Below are positions 22,601-26,932 of a stretch of DNA of 45,624 bases, piece after piece. The notes beneath the pieces are model-generated. The model saw only the letters and a program-made list of their open reading frames with translations. It had not been told where the DNA came from and did no database searches. Origin of the DNA: an uncultured Geobacter sp. (GTDB taxonomy: Bacteria > Desulfobacterota > Desulfuromonadia > Geobacterales > DSM-12255); NCBI GenBank assembly GCA_937871715.1, contig CALMOE010000203.1:1-45624 (forward strand). The letters are read 5' to 3'. The translations under genes and the position numbers were made by a program. Position 1 is the first letter of the stretch; each line of letters opens with the position of its first letter.

Positions 22601-23551
22601 TCACCACCCCCCCTCCATCTCTTTCACCCGCCTCAGCAGCACCTCACCCACCCCACAACCACCCCTTTTGTAACGGGGGGTGAAGAGCCCGGTGATGAAG
22701 CCGGCGCCATAGCAGCAGTGGAGAAGAGTATACACGAGGGGGAGACGCCAGGCAATGGCGAAGCTCTCCCCCAGCGCCGCTGCCGCCGTGCTGGCCAGGG
22801 CCAGGAGGGCGTAGAGAGCGGCGGGGAGGAGGTACCACCACCTGGGGAAGAGGGGGATGGAGATGAGGTAGCAGACGAAGAGGGATGGGATCAGTGCCTT
22901 GGCATCCAGCGAGCGGCTCAACAGGGTCTGCTCCGCCCTCCCCCTGCCGTAGGTGAACATCTGGCGGACGAAGGCCCGCAGGTTGGGGCGCTGGCCGCGG
23001 GTGACATACATGTCCGGGTCGTGGACCAGGCGCCGACCCTCTGCCAGGAGGCGATCCACCAGCTCGTTCTCCTCGTTGGGGTAGAGCCTCTCGTCCAGGC
23101 CGCCGGCGGCGAGATAGACATCCCTGCGGAAGGCCATGTTGCAGAGGATCAGCTCCCTGTCGTCCGTGTCGCGCAGCACGCCGTGACGGCGATAGCGGTT
23201 GCGGATGGCTCCGCCGCCGAAGAGGGATGCCAGCGCGCAGGCGACCCCCCGCTGGAAGGGGGTGTTGTCGGCAGGCGTCAGGGAGGGGCCGCCGGCCACG
23301 GCCACCGCCGGGTCCCCCATGTGCCGCTCCAGGCGGAGCAGGGCGTCGGGGACTACGATGGAGTCGTCGTCGAGAAAGTAGAGTATCTCACCTCCTGCCT
23401 CTGCCGCGGCCCGGTTCCGCTGCCGGCTCGGCCTGCGACCCTCGGCGACTATGACCTCGTACTGCGGCGACCCCGAAGCGAGGCTGCGCAGCCCCTCGAG
23501 GGCCGCCACCTCTCCGCCGGGCTTTACAGGGATGATGACCGATATCTTCAT
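22601..23551 (-). CDS. Family 2 glycosyltransferase
   Basis: The protein has the GT-A fold of family 2 enzymes: KISVIIPVKPGGEVAALEGL at the start, ILYFLDDDSIVVP (DxD metal/nucleotide-sugar site, near residue 65) and CNMAFRRDVYLAAGGLDERLYPNEENELVDRL (acceptor and ED motif). Two to three hydrophobic helices follow in the C-terminal ~100 residues, implying membrane association. I chose ATG 23551 because the domain begins right there; an in-frame ATG at 23575 adds eight residues. Neither has a clear ribosome-binding site. It is a lone gene, divergent from the release-factor-like gene. Its sugar and acceptor are unknown. Confidence 0.88.
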   Translation of the reverse strand: MKISVIIPVKPGGEVAALEGLRSLASGSPQYEVIVAEGRRPSRQRNRAAAEAGGEILYFLDDDSIVVPDALLRLERHMGDPAVAVAGGPSLTPADNTPFQRGVACALASLFGGGAIRNRYRRHGVLRDTDDRELILCNMAFRRDVYLAAGGLDERLYPNEENELVDRLLAEGRRLVHDPDMYVTRGQRPNLRAFVRQMFTYGRGRAEQTLLSRSLDAKALIPSLFVCYLISIPLFPRWWYLLPAALYALLALASTAAAALGESFAIAWRLPLVYTLLHCCYGAGFITGLFTPRYKRGGCGVGEVLLRRVKEMEGGW

Positions 23552-23614
23552 GGCAGGGGAGATTAGCACAGCCATAAGTTAGCTGACAAGCGTTTGCTCC
23601 GGGGCATTTGCAGC

Positions 23615-23643
23615 TTGGCAGGCCGGCCGGATGGGGTTATCAT
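23615..23643 (+). promoter_or_regulatory. Sigma-70 promoter of the release-factor-like/mutS2 operon
   Basis: The -35 TTGGCA (23615-23620) and -10 TATCAT (23638-23643) each differ from consensus at one base and have the ideal 17-base spacer. The predicted start is near 23650, 20 bases before the ATG. Confidence 0.7.
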
Positions 23644-23669
23644 GCCCAATCCGGCCCATGGAGGAGAAG

Positions 23670-24029
23670 ATGATCCAGTTCGGCGTTTCCCCGGAAAAGC
23701 AGAGACAGCTGACAGAGCGGATGGCGGAGCTGGGGATCAGCGAGGCCGACCTGGAGGAGCGCTTCATCCGCTCCTCGGGGAGCGGCGGCCAGCACGTCAA
23801 CAAGAGCGCCACCTGCGTTCAGCTTACCCACAAACCCACCGGCCTGGAGGTGAAGTGCATGCGGGAGAGGAGCCAGGCCCTCAACCGCTTCCTCGCCAGG
23901 AGGGAGCTGGCGGAAAAGGTGGCAAGGAGCATGGGCCTGGCAACCAGCCGCGACCAAATGGCGGAAAAGATCCGCAGGAACAAGGGGCGCCGAAGGCGCC
24001 GCAGAAGCGAAAAACGGGATGAGAGTTAA
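23670..24029 (+). CDS. Release-factor-like peptidyl-tRNA hydrolase (GGQ domain only)
   Basis: This 119-residue protein consists of the RF-1 catalytic domain. SSGSGGQHVNKSATCVQLTH carries the GGQ motif (residues 39-41) that hydrolyses peptidyl-tRNA in the ribosome. It is followed by a helix (RSQALNRFLARRELAEKV) and a strongly basic tail (RRNKGRRRRRRSEKR). No codon-recognition domain is present, so it acts without a stop codon, like ArfB/YaeJ or mitochondrial C12orf65/mtRF-R; the segment after GGQ is closer to the latter by eye. ATG 23670 follows GGAGG at five bases. Its TAA is immediately followed by the mutS2 ATG, so the two are coupled. Confidence 0.88.
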   Translation: MIQFGVSPEKQRQLTERMAELGISEADLEERFIRSSGSGGQHVNKSATCVQLTHKPTGLEVKCMRERSQALNRFLARRELAEKVARSMGLATSRDQMAEKIRRNKGRRRRRRSEKRDES

Positions 24030-26390
24030 ATGAACGGCACACCACTAAAGCTACTGGAGTTCGGCAAGATTCTGGAGAGGATAGCCATCTTCACCCATGG
24101 CGCACCGGCGGTGGAGAGGGTGATGGAGATCGCCCCCCTTGGCAGCAGGGAAGAGATGGAGCGCCGCTTCGGCCTGATTGAGGAGATCCGCCAACTGGGG
24201 CGTAGCGCCATAGGGCTACCCCTAAGCGACTACGAGGACGTCACCCCGATAGTCGAGCTTGCCAGGCCTGCAGGTGCGGTACTGAACCCCCTGGAGCTGG
24301 CCAGGATCCTCCCCATACTCCGGATCAGCCAGGCCATCCGCAGACAGCTTGATTACCGCGGCGACACCCCCCTCCTGGCGGAACTGGGGAGCGGGATAAC
24401 CGGCTTCCCCGACATCATGGAGGCACTGGAGCACGCCATCGCCCCGGACGGCACCCTCCTGGACACGGCCTCCACCCTCCTCTTCCAGCTGCGGCGCAGC
24501 ATCAGGCAGCTGACCTCAAGGGTGCGCAAGCGCCTGGAGGAGATCGTCAGGGAGAGGGAGGTGGCCATCTTCCTCCAGGACGACTTCATCACCCAGCGCA
24601 ACGGCCGCTGGGTCATCCCGGTGCGGATGGACTCCAAGGGGATGGTCCCGGGGGTGGTGCACGACGTCTCCAACTCTGGGGAGACGGCCTTCATGGAGCC
24701 GATCGAAGTCATCGCCATGGTCAATGAGCTGGAGAACCTCCACGCCGAGGAGAAGGGCGAGCAGATCCGCATTCTGCGCCAGTTCACCTCCTGGGTGCGC
24801 CAGGACGGGGACGGCATTCTGGCCAACATGGAGGGGATCGTCGCCTTTGACCTGCATAACGCCATCGCCGGCTTCGCCGACCTCCTCGGCGCCAACCGAC
24901 CCGAGCTGAGCAGTGAGCTGCGCCTCAGCATCCGCGGGGGGCGCCACCCCCTGCTGCTCCTCATGGAGCGGGAGCGGGGCGGCAGGGGGGTGGTCCCCCT
25001 GGAGCTGACCCTGGGGGATACGGACTCAGGGCGGGTGCTCCTCATCACCGGACCCAACACCGGCGGCAAGACCATTGCCATCAAATGCGCCGGACTGCTC
25101 ATCGCCATGGCCCGCTCCGGAATCCCGGTTACGGCCGACAGCTCGTCGCTCTTCCCGGCGGAAGCCACGGTCCTGGCAGATATCGGCGACGAGCAGTCCA
25201 TCGAGGAGAGCCTATCCACCTTCTCAGCCCACATCAGCAAGATATCCGCCATCCTTGGCAGGGCTGACGCCGGCACGGTAGTCCTCCTCGACGAGCTGGG
25301 GACGGGGACGGACCCGACCCAGGGGGCCGCCCTTGCCTGCGGCATCCTCGCCGACCTGATGGCCAAGGGGTGCCTGGTGCTGGCCACCACCCACCTGATC
25401 GACATCGTCGCCTTCGTGCAGCGTAGCGCCGGGATGGTCAACGGGGCGATGGAGTTCGACCGCAGGACCCTCACCCCCGGCTACCGCCTGGCCATCGGCG
25501 AGCCGGGGCAGTCCCACGCCCTGGATATCGCCCGGAGGTGCGGCCTGCCGGAGCGGATCATCGCCAGCGCCGAGGGGATGGTGGGGAGGATGGAGTCGGA
25601 GTTCCACACCCTCCTCGCCGAGCTGAAGGAGATGCGCCGCCGGCACGAGGAGACCCTTGAGGAGATGCTGCGCCGCGAGAGGCTCCTGGCCTCCCGCGAG
25701 TCCGACCTTGCCGCAGCGGCAGCCGAGATGGAGGTAAGGATCAGGGAGAGCCGGGCAAAGGGGCTAAGGGAGGCAAAGGAGCTGGTCCAGGGGGCGAGGA
25801 GGGAGATCAACCGGATCCTGGAGGAGGCGAAGAGGGAGAAGGGGAGGGATGCCGTAACAAAGCTGGCCGAGGTGGAGGAGAAGCTGGACGCCCCACTGCG
25901 GGAGCTGGAGGGGGGCAAGGTTATCCCGGCTGAGGAGATCAGGGCGGGGATCAGGCTCTTCGTGCGGATGCTCGGCATGGACGCCACGGTGCTGAGCGTG
26001 GATGGCAGGCATCGGCGGCTGCGGGTCAAGGCCGGCACAATGGAGATCGAGGTCCCCTTCGAAGGAGTTGAGCACCCCAGGGGGGGTGGGGAGGCGAAGA
26101 AGAGATCCGCCGGCAGGCACAGCGTATCGACCGCTGGTGGCGCGGACGAGAAGCGCGAGATAAACCTCATCGGCAAGCGGGTGGAGGATGCCATCCTCCT
26201 CCTGGACAGGTTCCTCGACCAGGCAGCCCTGAGCGGCTGGCAGGAGGTGCGGGTGATCCACGGCAAGGGGACCGGCAACCTGATGCGCGGCCTGCGGGAG
26301 CACCTGGCCAGACACCCCCAGGTGGCATCATTCCGCCCGGGGGAGCCCTACGAGGGTGGCGAGGGGGCGACCGTAGTCACCATGGGCTGA
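24030..26390 (+). CDS. mutS2: MutS2 ATPase/endonuclease with Smr domain
   Basis: MutS2 is a MutS paralogue lacking the mismatch-recognition domain. In Bacillus it is known to recognise collided ribosomes and split them; a role suppressing recombination is also described. The 786-residue protein has core and clamp helices (1-330), Walker A GPNTGGKT (about 341-348), Walker B VVLLDELGTGTDP (about 417-428), a long charged coiled coil (about 515-620) and a C-terminal Smr nuclease-like domain with HGKGTG near 744-749. The coupled GGQ protein just upstream strengthens a translation-rescue role here. A hairpin terminator follows. Confidence 0.95.
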   Translation: MNGTPLKLLEFGKILERIAIFTHGAPAVERVMEIAPLGSREEMERRFGLIEEIRQLGRSAIGLPLSDYEDVTPIVELARPAGAVLNPLELARILPILRISQAIRRQLDYRGDTPLLAELGSGITGFPDIMEALEHAIAPDGTLLDTASTLLFQLRRSIRQLTSRVRKRLEEIVREREVAIFLQDDFITQRNGRWVIPVRMDSKGMVPGVVHDVSNSGETAFMEPIEVIAMVNELENLHAEEKGEQIRILRQFTSWVRQDGDGILANMEGIVAFDLHNAIAGFADLLGANRPELSSELRLSIRGGRHPLLLLMERERGGRGVVPLELTLGDTDSGRVLLITGPNTGGKTIAIKCAGLLIAMARSGIPVTADSSSLFPAEATVLADIGDEQSIEESLSTFSAHISKISAILGRADAGTVVLLDELGTGTDPTQGAALACGILADLMAKGCLVLATTHLIDIVAFVQRSAGMVNGAMEFDRRTLTPGYRLAIGEPGQSHALDIARRCGLPERIIASAEGMVGRMESEFHTLLAELKEMRRRHEETLEEMLRRERLLASRESDLAAAAAEMEVRIRESRAKGLREAKELVQGARREINRILEEAKREKGRDAVTKLAEVEEKLDAPLRELEGGKVIPAEEIRAGIRLFVRMLGMDATVLSVDGRHRRLRVKAGTMEIEVPFEGVEHPRGGGEAKKRSAGRHSVSTAGGADEKREINLIGKRVEDAILLLDRFLDQAALSGWQEVRVIHGKGTGNLMRGLREHLARHPQVASFRPGEPYEGGEGATVVTMG

Positions 26391-26397
26391 GCAGAAG

Positions 26398-26426
26398 AGG
26401 GGGCAAGGGGCGACCCTGCCCCCCTT
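26398..26426. terminator. Hairpin terminator between mutS2 and the small TPR-like gene
   Basis: AGGGGGCAAGGG pairs with CCCTGCCCCCCTT (one bulge) around a short loop, between two convergent genes. The T tract is short. Confidence 0.6.
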
Positions 26427-26450
26427 CGTGACACGTTTACCGGTGACTGG

Positions 26451-26885
26451 CTACTTGGCAGGCGCGGCTTGCGTCGGGGGCTGGGGAGCAGCCATCTCCT
26501 GGCGGAGCCTTTCCACCGCCTGCAGCGCCTCGACGCGGAAATCGCTCTGGGGATAGGCGGCGAGGAACTCCTCCAACTGTTTCAGGGCCTGCTGACCATC
26601 CCCTTTCAGCCTGCTCTCCACCGCGGCGCTGAACTGCTGCAGCTCCTCCTCCCCCGCTTCGGCCGGTTTCTCCTTCCCCTTCCAGTAGATGTCGGTGGCC
26701 TCGTCACTCTTGGCCCCCCGCACCCCCCCTACGGCGGTTGTGGTGACACCCTTCTTCACCGGGGTGATCTTCTCCAGCTTGCCGGAGAGGCTCTCCCAGA
26801 ACCCCTCCCTCTTCCCCCCCTCACTGCCGTGGGCAAGGGTGGCTGCCAGCATCAGGCCGGCAACCAAGAACAGACACTTTTTCAT
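26451..26885 (-). CDS. Small secreted protein with YbgF/TPR-like helical domain
   Basis: This 144-residue protein starts at the ATG with GGAGG eight bases upstream. A signal peptide (MKKCLFLVAGLMLAATLAHG) is followed by a low-complexity linker and a C-terminal helical unit: LKGDGQQALKQLEEFLAAYPQSDFRVEALQAVERL. This resembles a single TPR/YbgF pair that tracks a 'size-of-pool' helix. The tail is Pro/Gln/Ala-rich (QPPTQAAPAK). It is the last gene of the three-gene unit with the giant propeller protein and the cyclase, 47 bases after the former. It is probably periplasmic; the linker and tail suggest it contacts a partner. I do not recognise a named family. Confidence 0.75.
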   Translation of the reverse strand: MKKCLFLVAGLMLAATLAHGSEGGKREGFWESLSGKLEKITPVKKGVTTTAVGGVRGAKSDEATDIYWKGKEKPAEAGEEELQQFSAAVESRLKGDGQQALKQLEEFLAAYPQSDFRVEALQAVERLRQEMAAPQPPTQAAPAK

Positions 26886-26932
26886 GAACGACACCTCCGT
26901 TTGCGGCCTCAATGGCTCCGGCCACCATGGGT

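Follow-up and report, generated by a model that had tools for sequence, protein, structure and literature searches.

A GGQ hydrolase gene abutting mutS2 in Geobacterales suggests a bacterial split-and-release rescue operon

A gene pair from an uncultured Geobacter, encoding a short GGQ protein and MutS2, suggests a bacterial operon for split-and-release ribosome rescue. We put at about one half the chances that its products would act in sequence, with MutS2 splitting the ribosome and the GGQ protein then releasing the peptide on the 50S subunit in place of RqcH, because every step past the gene pair is drawn from homologues. Just short of an even chance, in our estimate, is the broader proposal of a second bacterial large-subunit quality-control pathway, in which MutS2 and an mtRF-R-type hydrolase would replace alanine tailing by RqcH. 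If true, the operon would be a bacterial counterpart of mitochondrial RQC, with its splitting factor identified by gene linkage. Many bacteria have MutS2 and lack RqcH, and the operon is a concrete candidate for clearing their split 50S subunits. It is found in an order with cultured members, so the proposal is directly testable.

The anatomy of the locus is firmly established, and so, by sequence, is the family assignment. The window is the whole stretch of DNA that was analysed, 45,624 nucleotides long; the pair and its surroundings within it are as follows.

22601–23575, opposite strand: glycosyltransferase family 2 gene, divergent, upstream of the pair
23615–23643, + strand: promoter-like site TTGGCA-17 nt-TATCAT (10/12 sigma-70-like matches)
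23670–24029, + strand: GGQ gene, 119 aa, mtRF-R/C12orf65-like, without a codon-recognition domain (Pfam RF-1, 85 bits)
23784–23792, + strand: GGQ catalytic motif, codons 39–41 (from the sequence; invariant across a 25-member alignment)
24030–26390, + strand: mutS2, 786 aa (TIGR01069, 720 bits)
25041–25592, + strand: MutS2 ATPase (MutS_V) with intact Walker A GPNTGGKT and Walker B LLDELGTGTDP (Pfam PF00488, residues 338–521; 7qv3 alignment)
25929–26063, + strand: MutS2 KOW-like segment, about residues 634–678 (alignment to the B. subtilis MutS2 KOW segment)
26160–26381, + strand: MutS2 SMR domain (Pfam PF01713, residues 711–784; 7qv3 alignment)
26451–26912, opposite strand: convergent gene, downstream of the pair

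A preliminary description of this DNA had reported a 119-residue GGQ protein lacking a codon-reading domain, a GGQ stop codon touching the ATG of mutS2, and one near-consensus promoter before the pair. It was right on each count. RF-1 is the only Pfam domain that the GGQ protein matches; the TAA at 24027–24029 abuts the ATG at 24030 without a gap; and the promoter-like site, with its 10 of 12 matches, is the sole one within 23500–26600, where shuffles expect 0.3. Since the genes on both flanks lie on the opposite strand, the GGQ gene and mutS2 read, by layout, as a stand-alone two-gene operon.

Sequence, fold and tree comparisons support the view that the GGQ protein is nearer to C12orf65/mtRF-R than to ArfB, with an AU test leaving alternatives standing. 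The top match among all PDB sequences is human mtRF-R/C12orf65 (7a5h_C, 60 bits, E 3e-15) and the second is mouse C12orf65 (2rsm, 57 bits); RF1 and RF2 reach at most 49.5 bits and ArfB about 27 bits. The protein falls under every family cut-off in NCBIfam, and against the ArfB model (NF006718, cut-off 100 bits) it scores 48 bits, over residues 19–54 only. Its AlphaFold2 model (pLDDT 88) has its highest TM-score, normalised to its own length, with 7a5h_C (0.62, versus 0.42 for ArfB); by Foldseek E-value, RF1/RF2 chains rank better than 7a5h_C. A tree of 60 rows and 110 alignment columns places the bacterial GGQ subfamily and C12orf65 on one side of a branch with support 97/92, and ArfB, RF1/RF2, PrfH-like proteins and a second short GGQ protein on the other. 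Within the first group, C12orf65 is nested among the bacterial sequences. On these 110 columns alone, a grouping of C12orf65 with ArfB is not rejected by the AU test (p 0.34). The C12orf65/mtRF-R likeness proposed in the preliminary description is borne out by sequence and TM-score; the tree with ArfB, RF-H and C12orf65 that it called for leans the same way, within that limit of the AU test.

Human C12orf65/mtRF-R with MTRES1, of mitochondrial RQC (7a5h), is thus the closest known system in sequence and TM-score, and it shares with the GGQ protein a GGQ domain without codon reading, the lack of a helical insert and a basic C-terminal helix. mtRF-R works on large subunits after they have been split; with 70S or 55S ribosomes, no peptide release was detected (PMC8786322). 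Unlike it, the GGQ protein is bacterial and gene-linked to a known ribosome splitter; for mitochondrial mtRF-R, according to the same review, no upstream splitting factor is known (PMC8786322).

Could the protein instead be an ArfB-type factor, one that acts on whole 70S ribosomes stalled at the end of an mRNA and frees their peptides, with its co-transcription with mutS2 reflecting a shared stress role only? We consider this unlikely. Like ArfB/YaeJ and ICT1, it is a short GGQ hydrolase without a codon-reading domain; its domain is of the RF-1 family, as theirs is, and it has a basic C-terminal helix, and Burroughs and Aravind put C12orf65 with classical ArfB domains (PMC6514570). Unlike ArfB/YaeJ and ICT1, however, it has neither the helical insert nor the tail that enters the 30S mRNA channel. 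The insert, between the last two strands, is a feature of ArfB class 1 and ICT1 (PMC6514570). Both the 25-member alignment and the AlphaFold2 model of the GGQ protein have a short loop instead, lying in the model between strands 49–54 and 60–63. As for the tail, it is the part by which ArfB, reaching into the 30S mRNA channel, recognises empty ribosomes; L119 of ArfB stacks on G530 of the decoding centre (PMC8874680), and ArfB cut by 10 C-terminal residues loses ribosome binding (PMC8012679). We searched for a pattern with the ArfB spacing ERRLASK...K..R, anchored on the residue equivalent to L119. It is found in E. coli ArfB, and it is missing from the mutS2-linked protein and from all Geobacterales members of its subfamily. 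Long-tailed relatives do exist in other phyla, which favours the ArfB-type reading: of 105 distinct sequences in the wider subfamily, 32 have the tail, and none of these 32 is from Geobacterales. The preliminary description had raised the case of a protein belonging firmly to ArfB and acting on 70S ribosomes; as to family, what we find is a protein that lacks the insert and the 30S tail, matches ArfB at only 27 bits and stands closer to mtRF-R.

The ArfB-type reading also has to accommodate a second short GGQ protein, with a tail, already present in this genome (L003). Proteins of this kind, about 107–130 residues long, are present in all Geobacterales examined (L003, L184–L193). They have no helical insert and form a clade apart from both ArfB and the mutS2-linked protein. 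Most copies have the ArfB-like tail, including the one in this genome (L003:1498–1821, contig C133). By sequence, then, Geobacterales have one tail-less, mtRF-R-like GGQ protein, the mutS2-linked one, and one ArfB-like, mostly tailed, short GGQ protein.

The partner is a full MutS2. It matches TIGR01069 at 720 bits over positions 5–790 (cut-off 400), and it aligns over its full length with ribosome-bound B. subtilis MutS2 (7qv3, 8qpp; 386 bits). The domain set is complete, comprising ATPase, coiled coil, KOW-like segment and SMR domain. In the KOW-like segment the uS10-contact residues differ from those of B. subtilis MutS2. The SMR domain keeps HGKG and has NLI at the nuclease DxH/DLR position; the nuclease residues are lost throughout the sampled Geobacterales MutS2 proteins and in nearly all others from Desulfuromonadia. 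In B. subtilis, MutS2 takes collided ribosomes apart and leaves the mRNA intact, and its product is passed on to RqcH (PMC10897456). By homology, the MutS2 of this species would split ribosomes too.

These features bear on the reading in which the two proteins have no joint function, and the GGQ gene simply shares the operon of a MutS2 that works in DNA recombination. MutS2 is annotated as an endonuclease, and the genes lie apart in nearly half of Geobacterales genomes. We nevertheless regard this reading as highly improbable: MutS2 matches the ribosome-bound protein over its full length, its SMR nuclease motif is lost, the pair has been retained repeatedly, and RqcH is absent in the same order.

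The linkage itself is well conserved. The GGQ gene lies directly before mutS2 in 30 of 57 GGQ-bearing Geobacterales genomes, spanning 15 of the 18 GGQ-bearing genera sampled; the two genes are apart in the other 27 genomes, and in three genera. Upstream neighbours of the pair vary among genera (a glycosyltransferase, an EAL-HDOD protein and others), and the pair therefore outlasts rearrangement around it. The adjacency is not chance, recurring as it does in 15 of 18 genera with several upstream neighbours.

We also sampled 198 genomes across the phylum, which we take to be Desulfobacterota; the names Desulfuromonadia, Geobacterales and Myxococcota for genome groups are likewise our reading, drawn from related named records. 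Forty-four carry the GGQ subfamily at 149 bits or more, the next best GGQ protein scoring 87. MutS2 is present in 39 of these 44 and absent from five. The genes are adjacent in nine genomes: four Geobacterales, four of family f22 and one of family f45. That the adjacency might be unique to this genome, a doubt raised in the preliminary description, is therefore excluded. Its expectation that the pair would be conserved stood in part: the pair is conserved across Geobacterales and occurs in f22 and f45, and as a general rule it fails, being confined to one GTDB phylum. In f22, f45 and a third family outside Desulfuromonadia, f55, both the GGQ and the MutS2 proteins cluster with their Geobacterales counterparts, and for the two genes we therefore claim a shared history and no more. 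Co-transfer of the pair into these three families from inside Geobacterales was considered and set aside, since on MutS2 the AU test does not reject a placement outside the order (p 0.75). A separate origin of Geobacterales MutS2 from the MutS2 of other Desulfuromonadia was likewise unsupported (AU p 0.46).

The partnership is not obligate. MutS2 does not depend on the GGQ protein, as 112 of the 151 MutS2 genomes in the phylum sample have no GGQ gene, and there are GGQ carriers without MutS2. MutS2 was not detectable in 12 of 12 GGQ-bearing genomes from Omnitrophota, Verrucomicrobiota, Lentisphaerae, FCPU426, Spirochaetes and one unassigned Deltaproteobacterium, many of them drafts; in Myxococcota it is present in 10 of 12 GGQ-bearing genomes. 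The GGQ family is therefore not generally dependent on MutS2. These 12 genomes, and the limitation of the linkage to Geobacterales and two families, are what one would expect if the GGQ protein were a general bacterial mtRF-R serving any splitting event (HflX, HrpA or MutS2), with the mutS2 linkage a lineage-specific regulatory convenience. Yet the linkage has been kept through several rearrangements of the flanking genes, and most family members from genomes lacking MutS2 bear the ArfB-like tail, perhaps for another function. We judge the general role distinctly improbable.

Across phyla, no consistent neighbour of the GGQ gene other than mutS2 was found. In Geomonas and Citrifermentans (L046:5001–7083, L048–L062) the GGQ gene is unlinked to mutS2 and is the gene immediately before rho, in the same orientation. 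Elsewhere its neighbours are tRNA-related and differ with lineage: a YbaK-like aminoacyl-tRNA editing domain (L141:1928–2410), TruD (L123:2064–3230) and TilS (L064:5422–6420). In one f14 genome (L232:71–4144), mutS2, a transporter-like gene and the GGQ gene form a tight co-directional row, the order being the reverse of that in Geobacterales; this row may be chance.

The distribution of RqcH adds support for a joint pathway of MutS2 and the GGQ protein. After splitting by MutS2 in Bacillus, it is RqcH that receives the 50S-peptidyl-tRNA, and of the genomes that encode RqcH, 97% encode MutS2 as well (PMC11633108). We did not find RqcH (NFACT_N, PF05833) in this genome or in any sampled Geobacterales, the search being positive in 10 of 14 control genomes. 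Nor do the two factors ever occur together among 117 Desulfuromonadia genomes: all 117 have MutS2, 60 have the GGQ gene, 46 have RqcH, none has both and 11 have neither. Both the absence of RqcH from the sampled Geobacterales and this exclusion in the class are new here. In the phylum sample, too, the 44 GGQ genomes and the 27 RqcH genomes do not overlap; counted by family (19 with GGQ and 11 with RqcH among 79), zero overlap has P = 0.038. Genus g164 of family f82 carries the GGQ gene and lacks RqcH, while in its sampled sister genera the reverse is true; the MutS2 of g164 is the family's own. Because Geobacterales are one clade, the class-level exclusion rests on about three independent lineages.

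The exclusion is not a general law. A Pelobacter MAG (L045) has a tail-less GGQ form together with RqcH. Among 189 Myxococcota genomes, RqcH is present in 5 of the 12 GGQ carriers, no different from 93 of 189 overall; RqcH absences there are less sure, since the scores extend down to the threshold. All five RqcH-positive carriers have tailed GGQ proteins (L172–L179, RqcH in 5 of 9), and RqcH is absent from all three with tail-less ones (L180, L181, L183), a pattern seen after the fact.

For Geobacterales we propose the following mechanism. MutS2, by homology to the B. subtilis protein, would be recruited to collided ribosomes, and its ATPase domain would split them, leaving the mRNA uncut and peptidyl-tRNA on the 50S subunit. 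The GGQ protein could then move into the vacant A site of that subunit, where it would hydrolyse the peptidyl-tRNA and so allow recycling without alanine tailing by RqcH. The 50S substrate, the order of action, the replacement of RqcH and the joint pathway are all extrapolated from homologous systems. In favour of the split-and-release operon we count the linkage, the likeness to mtRF-R, the missing ArfB insert and tail, the MutS2 match and the absence of RqcH. Against it we count MutS2 without GGQ, GGQ without MutS2, the 27 of 57 genomes in which the genes are unlinked, RqcH co-occurrence in Myxococcota and Pelobacter, the 11 of 117 genomes with neither factor, and the AU result (p 0.34).

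Compared with RQC in Bacillus by MutS2 and RqcH/RqcP, the proposed pathway would start with a member of the same MutS2 family, the splitting factor that leaves 50S-peptidyl-tRNA (PMC10897456). It differs in that RqcH is absent, a release-type hydrolase would presumably take its place, and no alanine tail is expected. A review assigns the steps of bacterial RQC that follow splitting to RqcH/RqcP rather than to a release factor (PMC8786322). The operon also resembles PrfH with RtcB, in which RNA repair is coupled to release, in that a GGQ factor is joined in one operon with a second enzyme related to the ribosome; unlike PrfH, the GGQ protein has no codon-recognition remnant, and its partner is MutS2 rather than an RNA ligase. 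We found no report of the GGQ–mutS2 pair in the open-access papers searched, and MutS goes unmentioned in the main text of the principal survey of gene neighbourhoods of release factors (PMC6514570).

One GGQ protein from outside Geobacterales also deserves mention. The member from candidate division FCPU426 (L056:5001–5414) matches human C12orf65 (7a5h_C) at 91 bits. It is the closest bacterial match to the human protein found in this analysis, and may help to trace mitochondrial mtRF-R to its bacterial origin.
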